Positions 9,594 to 37,413 of a stretch of DNA of 64,000 nucleotides are shown in pieces. A program made the translations under genes and the position numbers. Source of the DNA: Massariosphaeria phaeospora (lineage: Eukaryota > Ascomycota > Dothideomycetes > Pleosporales); assembly GCA_011032825.1 (NCBI GenBank), contig JAADJZ010000026.1:310001-374000 (forward strand), read 5' to 3'. The number at the start of each line of letters is the position of its first letter. The stretch's first letter is position 1. The notes beneath the pieces are model-generated. The model was not told the DNA's origin. It did not search any database and saw only the letters and a program-made list of their open reading frames with translations.

Positions 9594-10724
9594 CTAGACA
9601 TCTCCATACCCATCCTTGACATCCTCGTCCTTGACATCGACATCATCATCGCTCAGATCCACGACCTCCGCTAGCCCTTGGTAGTCATGTCGATTGGCTA
9701 GACCTGCGATCCGATCCGCGATCTCGTTGCCCGGTACCTAGATTTACAGTTAGCTTGACAATCCCTTTTCCCATGTACTGAAAATTAGAAGACTTACTTT
9801 GGAGTGAGATGGGCTCCACCGTAGCGACAATGATGGGCCCAGGGCGCAAAGTTGGTTCACTTTGGTCACCACGTAGTCCCTCAGATCCCAATACCTCCTG
9901 CCGCCCAGCTGCTGCATTACCGATTGCGCATCGGTATAAACAACGACGCTTTCCAGGAGGTTCGGCGTCGCCTTGGTGATTTCGATGGCTTTGTCCAGGG
10001 CTTTAATAAAGGCGATGCCTTCGAGTAGATTGGTGGGGGTGCTCTGGCCCCTGACCTTGTACCCGGACATGGTCCAGGGGGACCAACCGCCGCCGTGTGG
10101 CAAGGTCTGGCGGTATACTATGGCCAATCCGCAGCCCGAAGTGGTGTTACCTCCGGAGGCATCGGTATACAAGACGAGTTTCGTAGGGTCCTGTTTGGCG
10201 ATGGTGTGTTCCTCGTAGACATCACGTATGGCGCGCATTGGTTCTGCGATCTCATAGGTGAACGCGTCTGGAAGGCTGGGGGGAAGCTGGAGGTTCTCAA
10301 TCGGGCGGCGGTATCGGTTGGGGACCAGTGTCTGGATGGAGGTGACCTGGAATCGCCTTACTGCTTCGAGGGCAGCCGCATACTCGCCATGTAAGCGAAG
10401 CTCTTGGAACACGCGCTCTTTCCAGGCCCCTAGATCGCCATGTCTGCTCGGACCGCCCAATTCGGGACCATTTGGCTGTCCTCCGGCCCTGGCCGCGGCT
10501 TTGTGTTGTCGCCGGGTAAGTTGTGGTTCATCGGGCGGGGGGCGACGCTCGGGAGGGGGTGGTGGAGACGGAGATGGGGCGGGGGAGCGCTCGTCTCGAG
10601 CTCGGGCTCGGCGAATGGGTAGCAGAATTGGGCCAAAGGCCGGGAGTGGGAGTTGGAGTTGGCGGGGTGGGCTGGGGTCGTCGGCGGTCAGGTCGATCGC
10701 GGTCGTTGGAGAGGCACCCTCCAT
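9594..10724 (-). CDS. Stand-alone RNase H domain protein
   Basis: Two exons, 10724-9798 and 9737-9594, give 356 residues; the intron is 59 bases. The N-terminal 110 residues are proline-rich and start with a SUMO-interacting-like AIDLTADD. The RNase H fold covers about residues 180-330 with all four acidic catalytic positions: D188 (LYTDAS), E235 (NLLEGIAF), D265 (VVYTDAQSV) and D317 (PGNEIAD). The last aspartate is restored only by splicing after SPSHSK. The tail is acidic (DLSDDDVDVKDEDVKDGYGDV). It should cut RNA in RNA:DNA hybrids. The domain resembles RNase H of fungal non-LTR retrotransposons more than classical RNase H1: no hybrid-binding domain and no reverse transcriptase is nearby, so it may be domesticated. 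The longer frame upstream lacks an ATG and reads through a minisatellite. Confidence 0.8.
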
Positions 10725-10831
10725 GGTGCCTGCTCTGGTAAGAGAGAAGGAGGGCGGGACCGAGGCAGATAGGTAAGTCGCAAGAAAGATTTCGCACTGC
10801 GCTAGTGGCCTTGGCAGGGTGGTGGAAGCGT

Positions 10832-10957
10832 GGTGAAGGTGGGAGAGACGTACACGTGGTAAAGGTGAGAGAGATGTACATGTGTTGAAGGTGAGAGAGA
10901 CGTACACGCGGTGAAGGTGAGAGAAAAAGACGCGGTGAAAGTGAGACAGGAAGACGC
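10832..10957. repeat. Minisatellite, 26-base then 24-base units
   Basis: Three 26-base units (10832-10857, 10858-10883, 10884-10909) are followed by two 24-base variants (10910-10933, 10934-10957). Each unit begins GGTGAAGGTGAGAGA or a close variant. It sits 108 bases upstream of the RNase H gene start, so it may lie in its leader or promoter. Confidence 0.85.
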
Positions 10958-11340
10958 GGGGTAATTTCACATAGGGCAACTCGGAAACACTGACAAGCTC
11001 TATCGTATCTAACAGACAAGATTTTGTCTTGATAGGAGGATAGGAAGAGAGCCGGTTCAGTCAAGCCTGGTGTCGCTACACCATGCCATTTGACCCCTCT
11101 CGACAGTAGAGAGCTTCCCCATCCTCTTGGCAAGTGTAGTGATTTGAGATGTCTGCAGCGCCTCCAGACGTAGGCAGGTATATCCAGCTGTTGTGGTTAC
11201 AGTGGGTTGAGAGAATGCCGATTGGATTCTGTGTTGGGTGGTGTTGACCTTCTGGATAGTGTTTGTGGTATCCACTCATCCTCTCAACTCCACTTGTGGC
11301 CTCCTGAATATTTTTGTGGTATTCACCCATCCTCTCGACT

Positions 11341-28877: not shown

Positions 28878-30388
28878 ATGGGCAAAGCCTTTTTTACCGG
28901 ATGGGCGCTCTGGCAGCAGATGACTTTTGTGAGTTTGCCCTTCTTTCGCACTGACGATGATCTATTGCTAACGTCATGGTCCCAGGTATTGGCTTGCGGC
29001 ATTGTACGCTTCACCTTCTGCACTCTCGTTTGCTCTGCTGACCCGCGTAGGTTGTTACTGTTGCTCTTGGTCTTGTCAAGCTCCGGTATGATCACTATCG
29101 GATCGCCAAGTACACGAAGATCGAGAAGGGAAAGAAAGTTCAAGAGCCGGAGATGCTCGAGGCGCAGCCGATTGAACCCAACAATCCTCGTCACAAGGAG
29201 GACATTCCATTCGGCATTCGTGCCATCGAGAGCGGCATCGAAGTCGACGGAGTATGGATCTCGAGAAGCAACACTCCTGTCGGCAGCAGCAGATCTTCCA
29301 TGACCGACTTCAAGCTCTCGCGGAGTCACAACAACTCCCAGCTCGAGTTGCCCCAAGCCATCCACCCGAGTCACGCCAGTTCACGAGCACCGAGCTCTTT
29401 CGACCTCGCGGTCAACGCCGAGCGTCTTCCCACAAACGACTCGCGCTCGTCGTCGCCTGCTCGGCTTAATCCCAACGATGCGCGCGGTGCCCGAGGTTCG
29501 CACATGAGCAACTCCCACGTTCTTCGGAACTCGGCGACCCTGCAAGCCTTGGAAGGAGGCGAGCCAGGACCTTCCACACGTGAGAGACCCCTAAAAGCCT
29601 AGCGCATTGACCTGAGCTAACCTTGCGACATAGCACGCTATGGAAATAACAACCTCCAGACTAGCTCCGCCAACTCTCGGAACTCTAGCAGAACTAGCGA
29701 TGAATCAGACTATATGAACATGGCTGACAGCCGGCCGTACGAACCAGCATACATCAACCCACGGCAAGCTCCTCTGACAGCTCCGGTCGACCCACGTTAT
29801 GACCTAGACCTCCTCCAAAGCCACCGAATGTCGCACGTCGCCGAGACAGGACAGCTCACTCCCAGAGTCCGCAAACCAGGCAATAGCGGAGAATGGGCCA
29901 GCGTGGCGGACAATATCAGATCCCCTGCAGAAATTTCTACCGCCAACGGCGTCGACTATTTCGTGCCTCAACAGAAGGCTCCCTCTCCTCCGCCAGCTCA
30001 TGCAGCAGAACTACCAGCCCCGTCTGCCTCGACGCTCACCCAGGATGGTCACGTATTGAACCAGGCTAAGCAAGCTGTGCCTCTTCTTGAATCGTATGCC
30101 CCGCGTGCGCGATATCTGCCCGAAGCTTATGAACCACGTGGACCGCTCAACCAGCTATCGTACGACGACTTGCCGTACGAGGTGGAGACTGCTCAGAACC
30201 AGCGGGACAACCAGATCCTCCGGAAGGTCAACTCTGGCTTCGAAATTTTACGCCCTGGTACATTTCAACCACCGAGTCCCGAGGAGGAGTTGGCGCAAGA
30301 AAAACGTCAATCGAAGCGCCTGCAAAAGAAGCGGAGATCTTCCGCCGGCTCTGGATCAAGAACATCGCATTTTGTCGAGCAGGTCTAA
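28878..30388 (+). CDS. Single-pass membrane protein of unknown function, fungal
   Basis: Four exons, 28878-28928, 28986-29003, 29051-29579 and 29634-30388, encode 450 residues. Exon 2 is an 18-base microexon (VLACGI) lying within the only membrane helix, which reads about QQMTFVLACGIVVTVALGLV after splicing. The N-terminus MGKAFFTGWALWQQMTF and the following LRYDHYRIAKYTKIE are the recognisable core of a family I have seen in moulds without a function. The remaining 400 residues are polar and low-complexity, with many Ser, Pro and Asn, and end in a basic block KRQSKRLQKKRRSS. The topology suggests a short outside or lumenal N-terminus and a long cytoplasmic tail. All joins keep frame. No partner gene is evident. 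Confidence 0.75.
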
Positions 30389-32386: not shown

Positions 32387-32742
32387 TAAACAGAGATTGT
32401 GGAGGGAGGTTAATGAAGCCTGCAGTAGCTTGTTCGATGATGATGAAGTTTTGAGCAAATCATGCATGCCACGTGGGAATGAGAAGGATGTATTTTATTA
32501 TAAAATTTGGATAGCGATTGCGTAATGGAAGCACAATTACATCAGCCAGAGCGAGACAATGTTTCCAGACAGCAGTCTCCTCGAGGTTAGGTGATGTAGC
32601 TGAGTAGTTCCATGTAGGATCCAAGACAAATCCGCCATATATTGCGAACCATCATCGTAATAACACTGAAACAGAAAATGGTCACTTCGAAAGAACCAAC
32701 TCTGCTGTCTTCACGAGACGCTGGTACAAGACGGCGATGTAT

Positions 32743-33340
32743 CTACAACGGAGACTCATCCTCGTCGTCCTCATCATCGTCATCCTCAGGGTCAGCCGAG
32801 GGAGTCGGCCTCGGTGGAATGCCGACGCTCCGGGTGGGACGGACAGAACGGGTGAAGCTGGGTCTTCCTGAGGGAGAGGGCCTAACGGAAGGAGTTGGGC
32901 GACCGCTGGGACTCGGGCGAACGCTAGGAGTCGGGCGAACGCTAGGAGTTGGGCGAACGCTGGGAGTTGGGCGTACGCTGGGGGTCGGGCGAACGCTGGG
33001 GGTTGGGCGAACGCTGGGAGTCGGGCGAACGCTGGGAGTCGGGCGAACGCTAGGAGTTGGGCGAACCGTAGGGAGACTCAAGCTGGGCAGGGCCGGAGGA
33101 GAGGGACGGCCAGTAGGACGGCTGAAGCTTGGGGCAGCCGGGGGTGTTGGGCGACCGGTGGGGAGGCCTGGGCGGCTGAAGCTTGGGCGTTCAGGGAGCT
33201 CTGGCTCCTCTGGGTCTTCTTCCCATTGAGGGGCACCGGCTACGAGGCTGTTCATGTTTTAGCAGATTTCGATGAGAACCGAGAGCAGCTGATAGTTACC
33301 TGGTGAGGCCGAGGTAGAAGACGATGGAAGTGAGCTTCAT
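32743..33340 (-). CDS. Small secreted protein built of VRPTPS repeats
   Basis: Two exons, 33340-33300 and 33247-32743, give 181 residues. Splicing creates a signal peptide, MKLTSIVFYLGLTSLVAGAP, with likely cleavage after about residue 18; without the join the frame lacks it. The mature protein opens with an acidic WEEDPEEPELPE, then Pro/Arg/Ser-rich RPSFSRPGLPTGRP. Eight perfect VRPTPS hexads follow, then VRPSPS/GRPTPS variants. It ends in an acidic run (EDDDDEDDEDESPL). There are no cysteines. The protein could be a cell-wall or extracellular matrix component or a repeat-containing effector; nothing in the sequence decides. Regular Thr/Ser-Pro makes O-mannosylation plausible. A TATA box stands 82 bases upstream. 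The gene is isolated in a repeat-bearing, gene-poor region. Confidence 0.78.
32890..33065. repeat. 18-base coding minisatellite (VRPTPS units)
   Basis: About ten 18-base units on the plus strand read GGAGTCGGGCGAACGCTG with third-position changes. On the minus strand each encodes VRPTPS. Because unit length is a multiple of three, copy-number change keeps the frame. Confidence 0.9.
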
Positions 33341-33421
33341 CTTGAAAGTGGGGCTGGTTGAATCTGTTTGGAGTATTGACTGGAGTGCTTGTCTACTCTG
33401 AAGAAGGGCGAAGGATGGGAG

Positions 33422-33429
33422 TTTATATA
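33422..33429 (-). promoter_or_regulatory. TATA box of the secreted repeat protein
   Basis: TATATAAA on the minus strand lies 82 bases upstream of the ATG at 33340, a normal distance for a regulated fungal promoter. Confidence 0.55.
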
Positions 33430-34331
33430 CTGTCTTGAGGGCTAATGTGTCGCTGTACAGCTTCAACCGTCTACAAGATTAGTACATTAGCCCACGGTAT
33501 ATTAGCCCGCCGATCCGTTGCCATAGACTGGCTAGCACAAATATCGGAGATGCGGATGCGCAACTTGTTGTTGAGATTTGGTCATTGCGGGATTGAAACC
33601 GGGTTTGAAGAAATGAGTGTAGTACCAAGGAGCGTAAGATTGGGAAAGTTGAAGCTAACGGAAAGAGCCAATATAAAGATATGAAGAGCAGTTCAAACGT
33701 GATGCAGGCCTGTAGTTAGCTGAGTACGTCATGTATGGTGCTGATGCCTGGTTGGGTCAGGAACAGCCCCCCTGAGCCGCAGCAAGGTCCCGAAAGATCA
33801 TCAGGAACGTATCTCAAACTTGGGAATCTAGAGCTAGGTGCCACATAAGCTATCCACCTAGTCGCCGGCTGAATGCTTTATGCAGGATAGGCCACCGTTG
33901 ACTAGGTTGGTACAGGTGCGGGGATATGGCGAGAGGGTGAATCCAGTCTTGCCAAGCCTGAAAGCGCCTTCTGTGTAAAGACGCACCGGTCTGTTTGAGA
34001 CCTGGCATCGGGATCTACGATCAACGTGGACGGACTGTCATTGATGTAAACCTGGGGTCGTATGATGGAACCTCGGTCGAAATTGAGTCCAGTCACCCAC
34101 CGGGCACTTGATGTTGTCGTTGAACTATCCCTTCGGTATTGAACCTCGTTGTTTGATACATAACTGTAGATTGAGATGGCGTGATACCGATGGCAAAGGA
34201 GGCACGCTTCAAGTTGTGTCTCCCTCGAGAGCACGGCAACGAGTAACGGCGCGGTGACGAGCACATAGCAATGTGATACGTGCAGGATCTAACGACCCAG
34301 AGTCGATCCGATGACGCGATTCGCGAAGTTT

Positions 34332-34374
34332 GAATAGCGTGATGCTATTCGTTGTCCCCGGACAACTAAGCATC
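34332..34374. repeat. Back-to-back and nested inverted repeats
   Basis: GAATAGC (34332-34338) and GCTATTC (34344-34350) form one hairpin. GTTGTCC (34351-34357) and GGACAAC (34360-34366) form the next with no gap between the two. GATGC (34341-34345) can also pair with GCATC (34370-34374) around the second hairpin. Confidence 0.7.
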
Positions 34375-35107
34375 ATTCAAGCTATTAGCCGAACAATCTA
34401 AAAGACAGTGCGGTAAATTACATAGGATGATCTGATAATTGACCCGACGGAGATGAAGCGGGGAAGCGCGGCAGCAAGTTTCAAACATTCTGGGATTTGG
34501 GCTGCACACTCGTATTCATACTATGTTTGAGTGGCAATGGAAGAGTGGAACGGCTTTGGAGAAAGCTTTCCATGAACAGCCAGACGAAGTTGCTTTTTCC
34601 AGCTCTGATAGGATCTACCATCTAGTAGAATTACTCCGGTGGTCCATTGCGCAGTCTCTTACAGCGAGTACTGGGAGGATCCTTGCTCTTTCTATCCAGA
34701 TAATCGATAATGCGGAGCTTCCTGTTGATGCTACCTGATGACTCAAAGAGTGCATGTAAGTGCAGAATGATATTTCGCATGGGGGATGAGGTAGTTGGTC
34801 GGACCGAAGGTATTTCTGGCGACAATGGTGACGCTGAAGATATGGAGACGTTGGTCGATGAAGAAAACACTGACGGTAGCAACACAGAAAAACTAAGATA
34901 GAAACTAAGAAACAGGGCTTGTGTAGGTATCTCTGAAAGAGGATGAAGAGTGTGAAATCAGAAGACGGGACGGGACTTTGGGAGCCCCCGCCGGTTCTAG
35001 GCTCGAAAGGGTAAAGCGTCGGGGAAACCCCGGGCCGGGTAGAAAAAAGTTCATGAGCTCCCGCTTGAGCGAAGGGCGAAGTGCTCGAGAACCAGCAATA
35101 CGACAAC

Positions 35108-37413
35108 ATGGGCGGAATCAAGCGAAAAACAGAGACTACAGCACAAACCGAGTCAAAGAGCAAAAGCAAAAAGATTAAAGTCGACAAATCCTCCACCAAG
35201 CGCCCCGCCAAAGCCGACGCTGTCAAACCTACGAAGATCTCCAAGAAAGCCAAAGTCCAGGAAAACGCAGAGGAGTTGATTGAGTCAGATACCAGCGAGG
35301 AAGAGAATGGTTTCCATGGGGTTTCGGCGAAGAAAGTCGCCGGACCCGCTATTCCAGAGGACGAAGATGTTGAAATGGAGGGGAGTGCGAGTAGCGACGA
35401 TAGCAGCCCTAAGAAGCAGATGAAGAAAATCGGTTCTACCCAGAAGGGTAATGTTGCATTAATGGAAGAGCAGAAGGCTGCACTGGCTGGACTTAACGGT
35501 ATATCACTTATACTATCCACCCACCTGTAGCTGCGTGTCTAACTCTGAGAGCAGCAACTTCATCCCGCGAAGCCCACGCTAAACAGAAAGCGCTAGCTAA
35601 GGAACGTAAAGCCGGGAAACCCAACGCCGACATCATAGAACGATCGAAGAAGCTATGGGAGAAGCTCAGACTGAAATCACACGTTGAGAAAGAGGAGAGA
35701 CAGAAGTTGGTGGCGGAGCTATTTGAGATAGTCACAGGCAGAGTCAAAGATTTTGTCTTCAAGCATGATTCGGCTAGAGTCGTCCAATGTGCAATCAAAT
35801 ACTCGACAATGGAACAGAGGAGGATGATTGCGCGCGAACTGAAGGGGGAATACAAGACTCTGGCTGAGGGCAAATACGCGAAGTTCTTGACCGCCAAACT
35901 GCTCGAGAAAGGGTAAGCACTTGAGGTTCTGTAGCTGTGCGACAGCTAACATTGTTCAAGGGATCCCGAGATTCGAGATATGATCGTGACAGAGTTTTAC
36001 GGTCATGTCAGACGGTTGATCAACCACCCCGAGGCTGCCTGGATCCTGGACGACACTTATAGACAAGTTGCGACGACTGAACAGAAGGCGCGACTTCTAC
36101 GTGAGTGGTACGGACCTGAATTTTCGATCAAAGGCCTCAAGGCTACGGATACCGACACCGCAGAGCTCTCAGTTATCCTCGAAAAGTCGCCAGAGAAACG
36201 CAAACCTATTATGGAGCATCTCGAGATCCAGATCAACCAGCTCATACAGAAAAAGCTCATTGGATTCACAATGCTTCACGACGCAATGCTGCAATATTTC
36301 TTGTGCTGCAAGCCCGGCAGCGAAGAAGCCAATGCTTTCCTTGAGCACTTTAAGCCCGACCCTACGCTGAAAGAGGGTGAGGAAGCGGACAATGTCGATC
36401 TTTTGAAGAATCTTGCATTCACAAAGTCGGGTTCCCGGCTTGTTTCGCTCGCGCTCGCATATGGTACTGCTAAAGACCGCAAGGCTTTACTCAAACCATA
36501 CAAAGACACTGTCGAGATGATGTCCTATGATGCCAATGCCCATCACGTCCTGCTCGCAGCACTGGCAGTTGTCGACGACACCAAGCTTACTTCGAAAACC
36601 ATCTTCGGAGAACTGTTACCGTCCAACGATAGCCTCTCTGAGAAGGTTTTAAACCTAGCGAACGACGCTCACGCTAGGACCGTCATTCTGTACCCTTTTG
36701 CATCCGACGCAAAATGGCTATTCAATGACCCGACGCGCGAACGGTTGTCCGAGTTGTACGCCATACGGTCTGCGACGTCGAAGAAGGACCCAAATACGCG
36801 ACAACAGGAAATTACAAAAACCATCGTACCACAGCTGTTTACTGCCATCACTGCTCGAGCTGCAGAAATCGCCGCGTCCCATTCCGGGCTTCAATTCATG
36901 GGCGAAGCCCTCGTCGGTGCGCCTGGTGTGGAAACGGACAAGCGGAACGAGGCACTGACAGAGGTGGCCCAAATCGCCCAGCAGATCATCGACTCGTCGC
37001 TCCCAGTTTCGGCTGGCGATGCGAAGGCTGCGAGCCAGGGGAAGAACATGCTCAAGACACTCGTCCAAGGCGGCAAGTTCGACCCCAAGCTCAAGAAAGT
37101 GGTACCAGTAGAGCCACCGCTGGGCTTTGCCGATTTGTTTTGGGATCAGATCAAGGATAACGTGTTGCAATGGGCTACTGGTCAGGGTTCATTCGTCATT
37201 GTTGGTCTGGCAGAAGCTGAGGGGTTTGGAAAGAAAGATGGTCTGATGAAGGCACTGGAGAAGGGGCAGAATGAGTTGAAGGCCGCAGCTGAGTCGAGTG
37301 CTGAGGAGCCGAAGACATCGAAGAAAATCGGCAAGGCGTCGAAGAAGGGTGACAAGGCACAGGGTGAGAAGAAGGGGAATGCGGGAGCGAGAATACTTCT
37401 GGAAAAGCTATGA
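35108..37413 (+). CDS. PUF6: Pumilio-family ribosome-assembly factor Puf6
   Basis: Three exons, 35108-35498, 35555-35912 and 35961-37413, encode 733 residues. Puf6 and its human partner PUM3 (Penguin) bind RNA through Puf-like repeats and act in nucleolar 60S assembly; yeast Puf6 also represses ASH1 mRNA. The N-terminus is a Lys/Ser/acidic region (about 130 residues) with nuclear-signal-like clusters. Repeat units follow, for example GRVKDFVFKHDSARVVQCAI, GKYAKFLTAKLLEKG and AFTKSGSRLVSLALAYG, and the CPL-type C-terminal half contains the FLEHFKPDP and AHHVLLAALAVVDDTK parts. A Lys-rich tail closes it. The ATG at 35108 gives MGGIKRK; the frame upstream has only GTG. Joins keep frame and restore GLNATSSREAHAKQ and LLEKGDPEIRDMI. 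Confidence 0.93.

Follow-up and report, generated by a model that had tools for sequence, protein, structure and literature searches.

The stretch of Massariosphaeria phaeospora DNA analysed here (the window; 64,000 nucleotides) carries on its minus strand a predicted gene of two exons (33340-33300 and 33247-32743), which are joined across a 52-nt GT-AG intron and encode a protein of 181 amino acids (Table 1). This gene model had been proposed in the first-pass annotation, and its coordinates, frame and splice sites were all confirmed (ATG at 33340, intron 33299-33248, last base of the TAG stop at 32743). Without splicing, the frame runs into a stop after 14 codons. The base at position -3 of the ATG is A.

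Table 1. Features of the gene and its promoter, in the direction of transcription (positions in the window)
Feature	Position	Strand	Remarks
Promoter cluster, three copies of GGGCTAAT/ATTAGCCC	33439..33508	minus	at -168, -153 and -106; just upstream of the TATA-like box
TATA-like box TATATAAA	33422..33429	minus	starts 89 nt before the ATG; sequence match only
Exon 1	33300..33340	minus	ATG at 33340; most of the signal peptide, 13 codons and 2 nt of Ser14
Intron, 52 nt, phase 2	33248..33299	minus	GTAACT...CTAAAAC...ACAG; predicted from sequence
Exon 2	32743..33247	minus	rest of the signal peptide, acidic head, R/P/S/T core, C box, acidic tail, TAG
Eight perfect VRPTPS hexads	32923..33066	minus	residues 75-122
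Variant array end: VRPSPS, GRPTPS, VRPSPS	32869..32922	minus	residues 123-140
C box	32797..32868	minus	residues 141-164; contains TRSVGIP and RPTP; common to most relatives
Acidic tail and stop	32743..32796	minus	residues 165-181; net charge -12

Architecture and coding evidence

Residues 1-18 resemble a signal peptide, as judged by eye, by hydropathy and from the relatives described below, not by a dedicated predictor. Cleavage after residue 18 would leave a mature protein of about 163 residues. The signal peptide created by splicing, the eight VRPTPS hexads, the acidic head and tail and the lack of cysteine had been described before and were found again; the mature length reported earlier was 160 residues. 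The acidic head (residues 19-34) has a net charge of -6 and is separated from the array by a proline-rich stretch of 40 residues. The array itself (residues 75-140, 66 residues) carries a net charge of +11, and the 24-residue C box that follows it +5. Cysteine is absent from the 181-residue protein and its sole lysine is residue 2. The approximately 163 mature residues include 47 prolines, 41 serines or threonines and no asparagine, a composition that allows O-glycosylation and not N-glycosylation. A Pfam search of the protein gave no match. An AlphaFold model, calculated from the exon-2 frame and four relatives (P0001-P0004, thus only five sequences, with P0006 left out), had a mean pLDDT of 56.7 and no secondary structure, i.e. 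disorder is predicted. Eight matches to solved structures at E ≤ 1 (best 0.00025; FLVCR2, circumsporozoite protein and one uncharacterized protein) were judged compositional. An SH3-domain ligand was rejected, as the array (residues 75-140) contains no PxxP.

Tandem Repeats Finder reported an array with an 18-bp period, 9.8 copies, 89% matches and a score of 261, together with a 54-bp row; the earlier proposal that units of 18 bases keep the frame when their copy number changes is supported by the sequence. The 11 units of the array differ from their consensus at 23 nucleotides, yet these changes cause only three residue differences, against 14.6 ± 2.0 expected under random placement (as few as three in 0 of 5000 simulations), although the units are copies of one another and such figures therefore overstate their independence. 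The eight perfect units depart from the consensus 10 times, always at third positions, and none of their four variable columns alters a residue (P = 0.0032, for units picked because they are perfect). The encoded residues of the array are constrained.

We weighed this result against the possibility that the gene is a nearly neutral minisatellite whose secreted product is dispensable and whose array arose by slippage. The array is indeed a tandem minisatellite and relatives are few (seven proteins in all searches), but the drift at third positions leaves the residues as they are, serine codons (AGC/TCC/TCA) and arginine codons (CGC/AGG) are switched with the residue unchanged, and the frame, the splice sites and the ends of the protein are intact. 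We regard this explanation as improbable. The constraint test fits the minus frame and the opposite-strand frame equally well, as their third positions coincide. Consequently, a plus-strand frame (32642-33229, 195 codons, with GVGRTL repeats), which is open across the array and in which most of the array differences should be silent too, had to be considered as the real gene. It would start from TTG or from a later ATG, has no signal-peptide-like start and gave no Pfam match, and the relatives read the minus frame. It is for this last reason, and not because of the constraint test, that the minus frame is preferred, and there is hardly any chance that the plus-strand frame is the gene.

Promoter motifs and neighbourhood

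The three copies of the promoter motif lie at 33501-33508, 33486-33493 and 33439-33446. The GGCTAA core of GGGCTAAT/ATTAGCCC is given as the canonical XlnR site (PMC6348686). GGCTAA occurs nine times in the window, three of them in the single 68-bp cluster in this promoter, and a cluster of this kind appeared in 0 of 2000 simulated 500-bp pieces. Among the other 260-bp segments of the window, four of 482 contained an 8-mer three times within 80 bp (one minisatellite accounting for two of the four), as did two of 5000 simulations; the motif had been spotted before it was tested. Genome-wide, a close pair of GGGCTAAT occurred once, as did its reversed control, and GGCTAA pairs numbered 88 versus 85 for the reversed control. 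An XlnR-controlled promoter was rejected, since both kinds of pairs are about as frequent as their controls. The GGGCTAAT copies form a possible regulatory cluster. Separately, GGCTAAACTAGTAACTCGGCTAA was found exactly on several contigs of the same genome (e.g. C1:2725909, C4:1194537, C6:790798, C31:160697 and C34:1052326) and is perhaps part of another dispersed repeat.

The surroundings had been called a repeat-bearing, gene-poor island, which we find overstated: there is a spacer of about 4.7 kb with one short copy of a dispersed repeat, but those neighbours that were scanned resemble housekeeping genes, and the upstream flank (33420-35000) occurs once in the genome. From 30.4 to 35.1 kb, frames of 110 codons or more were considered, and the five longest that do not overlap had no Pfam match at E ≤ 0.01. 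The spacer is flanked by frames without a Pfam match (29051-30385) on one side and by a CPL-domain (Puf6-like) gene on the other. The frame 35081-35530, also without a Pfam match at E ≤ 0.01, is by its position the start of the CPL-domain gene. PAP2, Rad51 and VPS9 genes are located further out. A Pfam scan of 19 neighbouring frames (E ≤ 0.001) detected CPL, ankyrin, PAP2 (two frames), Rad51, MFS, ClpB-like AAA, FAD-binding, fungal rhodopsin, VPS9 with ankyrin, ubiquitin-conjugating, fungal transcription factor and thioesterase domains, and six of the 19 frames had no match at this threshold. The segment 32291-32405 is a copy of a short dispersed repeat that matches at least 43 other places in the genome with 77-86% identity, as counted from 40 of 153 candidates; conserved sequence extends somewhat past its ends, and five copies had no Rfam match at E ≤ 0.1. 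It is perhaps the decayed repeat of the first-pass annotation. We read the surroundings as a spacer holding one small gene, and nothing in them marks an effector island.

Elsewhere in the window, the segment 31001-32000 has a GC skew of +0.48, the strongest strand asymmetry in the 1-kb table. A 100-base tRNA match (RF00005; 57945-58044), perhaps with an intron, was not reported by ARAGORN in its bacterial setting. A 26-bp minisatellite of 3.7 copies (10829-10924) lies inside the minus frame 9753-11060, the later part of which resembles an RNase H fold by eye and which had no Pfam match.

Relatives in Pleosporales and turnover of the repeats

A phmmer search with the window protein retrieved two proteins (E = 2.5e-6 and 7.3e-5), and a profile of these two and the window protein retrieved seven at E ≤ 0.1, with P0007 (E = 0.031) as the weakest. 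A further search with residues 1-45 of P0004 returned just P0004 and P0002 and added nothing. The phmmer and profile searches were restricted to the approximately 8000 candidates with the most shared words, and further relatives may have been missed because of low-complexity words. Five relatives (P0001-P0004 and P0006) come from named species, of Decorospora, Setomelanomma, Pleomassaria, Paraphoma and Plenodomus (BDW02DRAFT_118095, EK21DRAFT_107601, K504DRAFT_59416, FB567DRAFT_41343 and NX059_002528), which belong to four families: Pleosporaceae, Phaeosphaeriaceae (two), Pleomassariaceae and Leptosphaeriaceae. P0005 and P0007 are from metagenome contigs of 1,640 and 1,290 bases. The relatives are annotated as 'hypothetical' or 'uncharacterized'.

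In comparisons with shuffled sequences, the N-terminal 34 residues scored z values of 13-18 in all five named relatives, values pushed up by the order that signal peptides have in common, and the C box with the tail scored z values of 7-14 in all five; the similarity of the ends is of a low-complexity kind. P0005 aligns only at its C-terminus (z = 9.5) and P0007 only in its N-terminal part (z = 15.0, compared with 1.7 for the C-terminal end). A similar N-terminus and a Cys-free R/P/S/T core are common to the window protein and all five named relatives, and four of the five share the [VI][RK]PT motif, the RS[VIF]G[ILV]P box and a D/E-rich tail, respectively. The RSxGxP of the C box is absent from P0003. 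P0006 has neither an acidic head nor a D/E tail, so the charge blocks are not universal. The first-pass annotation had named a frame conserved in relatives without a signal peptide as evidence against its model; on the contrary, all five full-length named relatives begin with a similar N-terminus. The named relatives differ from the window protein in their length (109-141 amino acids) and in having none to three [VI][RK]P[TS]P[SP] hexads. None of the five has the VRPTPS array.

Reciprocal searches of the M. phaeospora genome (42.08 Mb) gave a mixed result: they returned this gene first for P0003 (E = 2.7e-6) and also for P0002, yet with E = 0.085; with P0001 and P0004 it was not found. The genome contains one match to the gene at E ≤ 0.001, and no second copy was detected at this threshold in searches with the window protein and P0001-P0004. 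Judged by sequence similarity, P0001-P0004, P0006 and the window protein appear to form a small orphan family, found so far in Pleosporales.

The repeats of the family vary. The window protein has 13 hexads of the form [VIG][RK]P[TS]P[SP], whereas P0003 has three, P0001 and P0002 have one each and P0004-P0007 have none. Periodic cores beyond those of shuffled sequences were present in the window protein (6 residues), P0004 (18 residues) and P0007 (9 residues), with 0 of 2000 shuffles reaching the observed periodicity in each case. For the remaining proteins it was reached by 54 (P0001), 322 (P0002), 225 (P0003), 512 (P0005) and 85 (P0006) of 2000 shuffles. Clear arrays are therefore found in three of the eight proteins, each with a different unit, and five of the eight have no clear periodic array. 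Such differing units suit a repeated remodelling of the core between kept ends. P0003 suggests that the [VI][RK]PTP motif is old, and the VRPTPS array probably arose when this older motif was expanded in one lineage, because clear arrays occur in three of eight proteins and their units have 6, 18 and 9 residues. Arrays of other units in the relatives are as expected if length and composition outweigh the exact sequence.

Known repeat-peptide systems and proposed function

We compared the protein with several known systems. A Kex2-processed repeat precursor was rejected, as there is no KR, RR or KK pair anywhere in the protein; dibasic pairs and cysteines are likewise absent from the five named relatives. 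KEPs, which resemble it as secreted tandem-repeat proteins, are recognised by three or more repeats with KR, RR or KK between them, and in the KEP survey the sequences were cut at these pairs (PMC6339444). Rep1 and Rsp1 of U. maydis also carry Kex2 sites (PMC4617103). Plant CEP peptides and their nematode mimics share with the window protein an RPT core and repeated short units. SPG, the element that defines both CEP groups, occurs neither in the window protein nor in the seven relatives, and a CEP peptide mimic was rejected. For group II CEPs, PSPG is named (PMC9739355). A dikaritin-type cluster was rejected too: 25 window frames scanned (19 at E ≤ 0.001, six at E ≤ 0.01) included no UstYa-like Pfam domain. 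The VRPTPS hexad as a word had no match in a literature search that mostly excludes subscription papers, and within the same scope no title among the matches listed had the family as its subject. The available parts of PMC4617103, PMC5923269, PMC6339444, PMC9739355, PMC4197245 and PMC6348686 describe similar kinds of protein, but not this family. It is apparently undescribed, its broad kind being the fungal repeat-containing secreted proteins.

In the basic Arg-Pro core, as the sequence shows, a [VI][RK]PTP motif has been multiplied into the hexad array. Our preferred reading, held at somewhat less than even chances, is that the gene encodes a secreted, non-enzymatic, disordered and O-mannosylated polymer of the surface or matrix. 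O-mannosylation is usual for Ser/Thr-Pro-rich secreted proteins of fungi, and the core would carry it after secretion. It could then adopt an extended, polyproline-II-like form. This helix has three residues per turn, which gives the array the faces V/T, R/P and P/S and one arginine every two turns; with a six-residue repeat all arginines would lie on one face. Such a rod might bind acidic polymers of the fungal wall or of the surrounding matrix through many weak contacts, and the acidic ends may limit or bridge this binding. Copy number would set the length and valency of the rod in 18-bp steps that keep the frame. The predicted role is that of a multivalent coat of the surface or matrix, rather than of an enzyme or a peptide precursor. 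A GPI-anchored wall protein was rejected, since the protein ends in its acidic tail and has no hydrophobic C-terminal GPI signal. Of the wall-anchoring or matrix role suggested in the first-pass annotation, GPI anchoring thus falls away; given the lack of a GPI-type tail and of a Pfam domain, what remains plausible is a non-covalent role in the wall or matrix.

The main rival is that the protein could be an apoplastic repeat-containing effector, released while a host is being colonised, which protects the hyphae or attaches to proteins of host defence or to the host wall and changes its repeat number under host pressure, like Rsp3 of Ustilago maydis. Rsp3 is a predicted non-processed repeat protein without a GPI anchor; its orthologues share 35-55% identity in the N-terminal domain and 4-21% in the repeat domains, and its alleles differ in length between isolates (PMC5923269). 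The window protein likewise appears to be secreted and non-processed, with no GPI anchor, and to combine a conserved end with fast-changing repeats, so that the kept ends and differing middles of the family could be read in the same way. The XlnR-site core of the three promoter copies could moreover tie expression to plant polymers. However, Rsp3 is much longer and has Q/P-rich and Cys-rich regions, and the likeness drawn here is one of architecture. The window protein lacks a Cys-rich part such as the one on which Rsp3 depends for its function, the XlnR reading is weakened by the reversed control, and the region, with its single-copy flank and housekeeping-type neighbours, is not marked as effector- or transposon-rich. 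The effector class named in the first-pass annotation is therefore matched loosely, by the signal-peptide-like start and the tandem repeats, but not by its setting, and we consider an effector distinctly less likely than not to be the answer.

The strongly basic Arg/Pro-rich array (+11 in 66 residues) between acidic segments would also fit a precursor or carrier of a cationic proline-rich antimicrobial sequence, in which the acidic head and tail neutralise the basic core until proteolysis. Every arginine of the array is followed by proline, however, and proline after arginine blocks most basic-site proteases. Proline-rich antimicrobial peptides are rich in Pro and Arg and can form Pro-Arg-Pro motifs (PMC11678341), whereas the window protein, for all its Pro and Arg, contains a single PRP, no dibasic release site and acidic ends, and no fungal example was named among the literature titles listed. 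This possibility appears remote, slightly more so than that of the neutral minisatellite.

Returning to the surface or matrix polymer, we can extend it to the family as a speculation that is rather unlikely to hold in full: Pleosporales may possess secreted charge-block polymers, made of an acidic head, an Arg-Pro rod and an acidic tail. Each lineage would build the rod anew from other repeat units and preserve the ends and the chemistry, rod length and arginine spacing, rather than the exact sequence, being under selection in a coat of the hyphal surface. The gene brings to Pleosporales, in which plant pathogens and saprobes abound, a small secreted family without a Pfam domain. It is also an example of repeats that turn over while the ends are preserved, and its 18-bp array would serve as a ready length marker across isolates.
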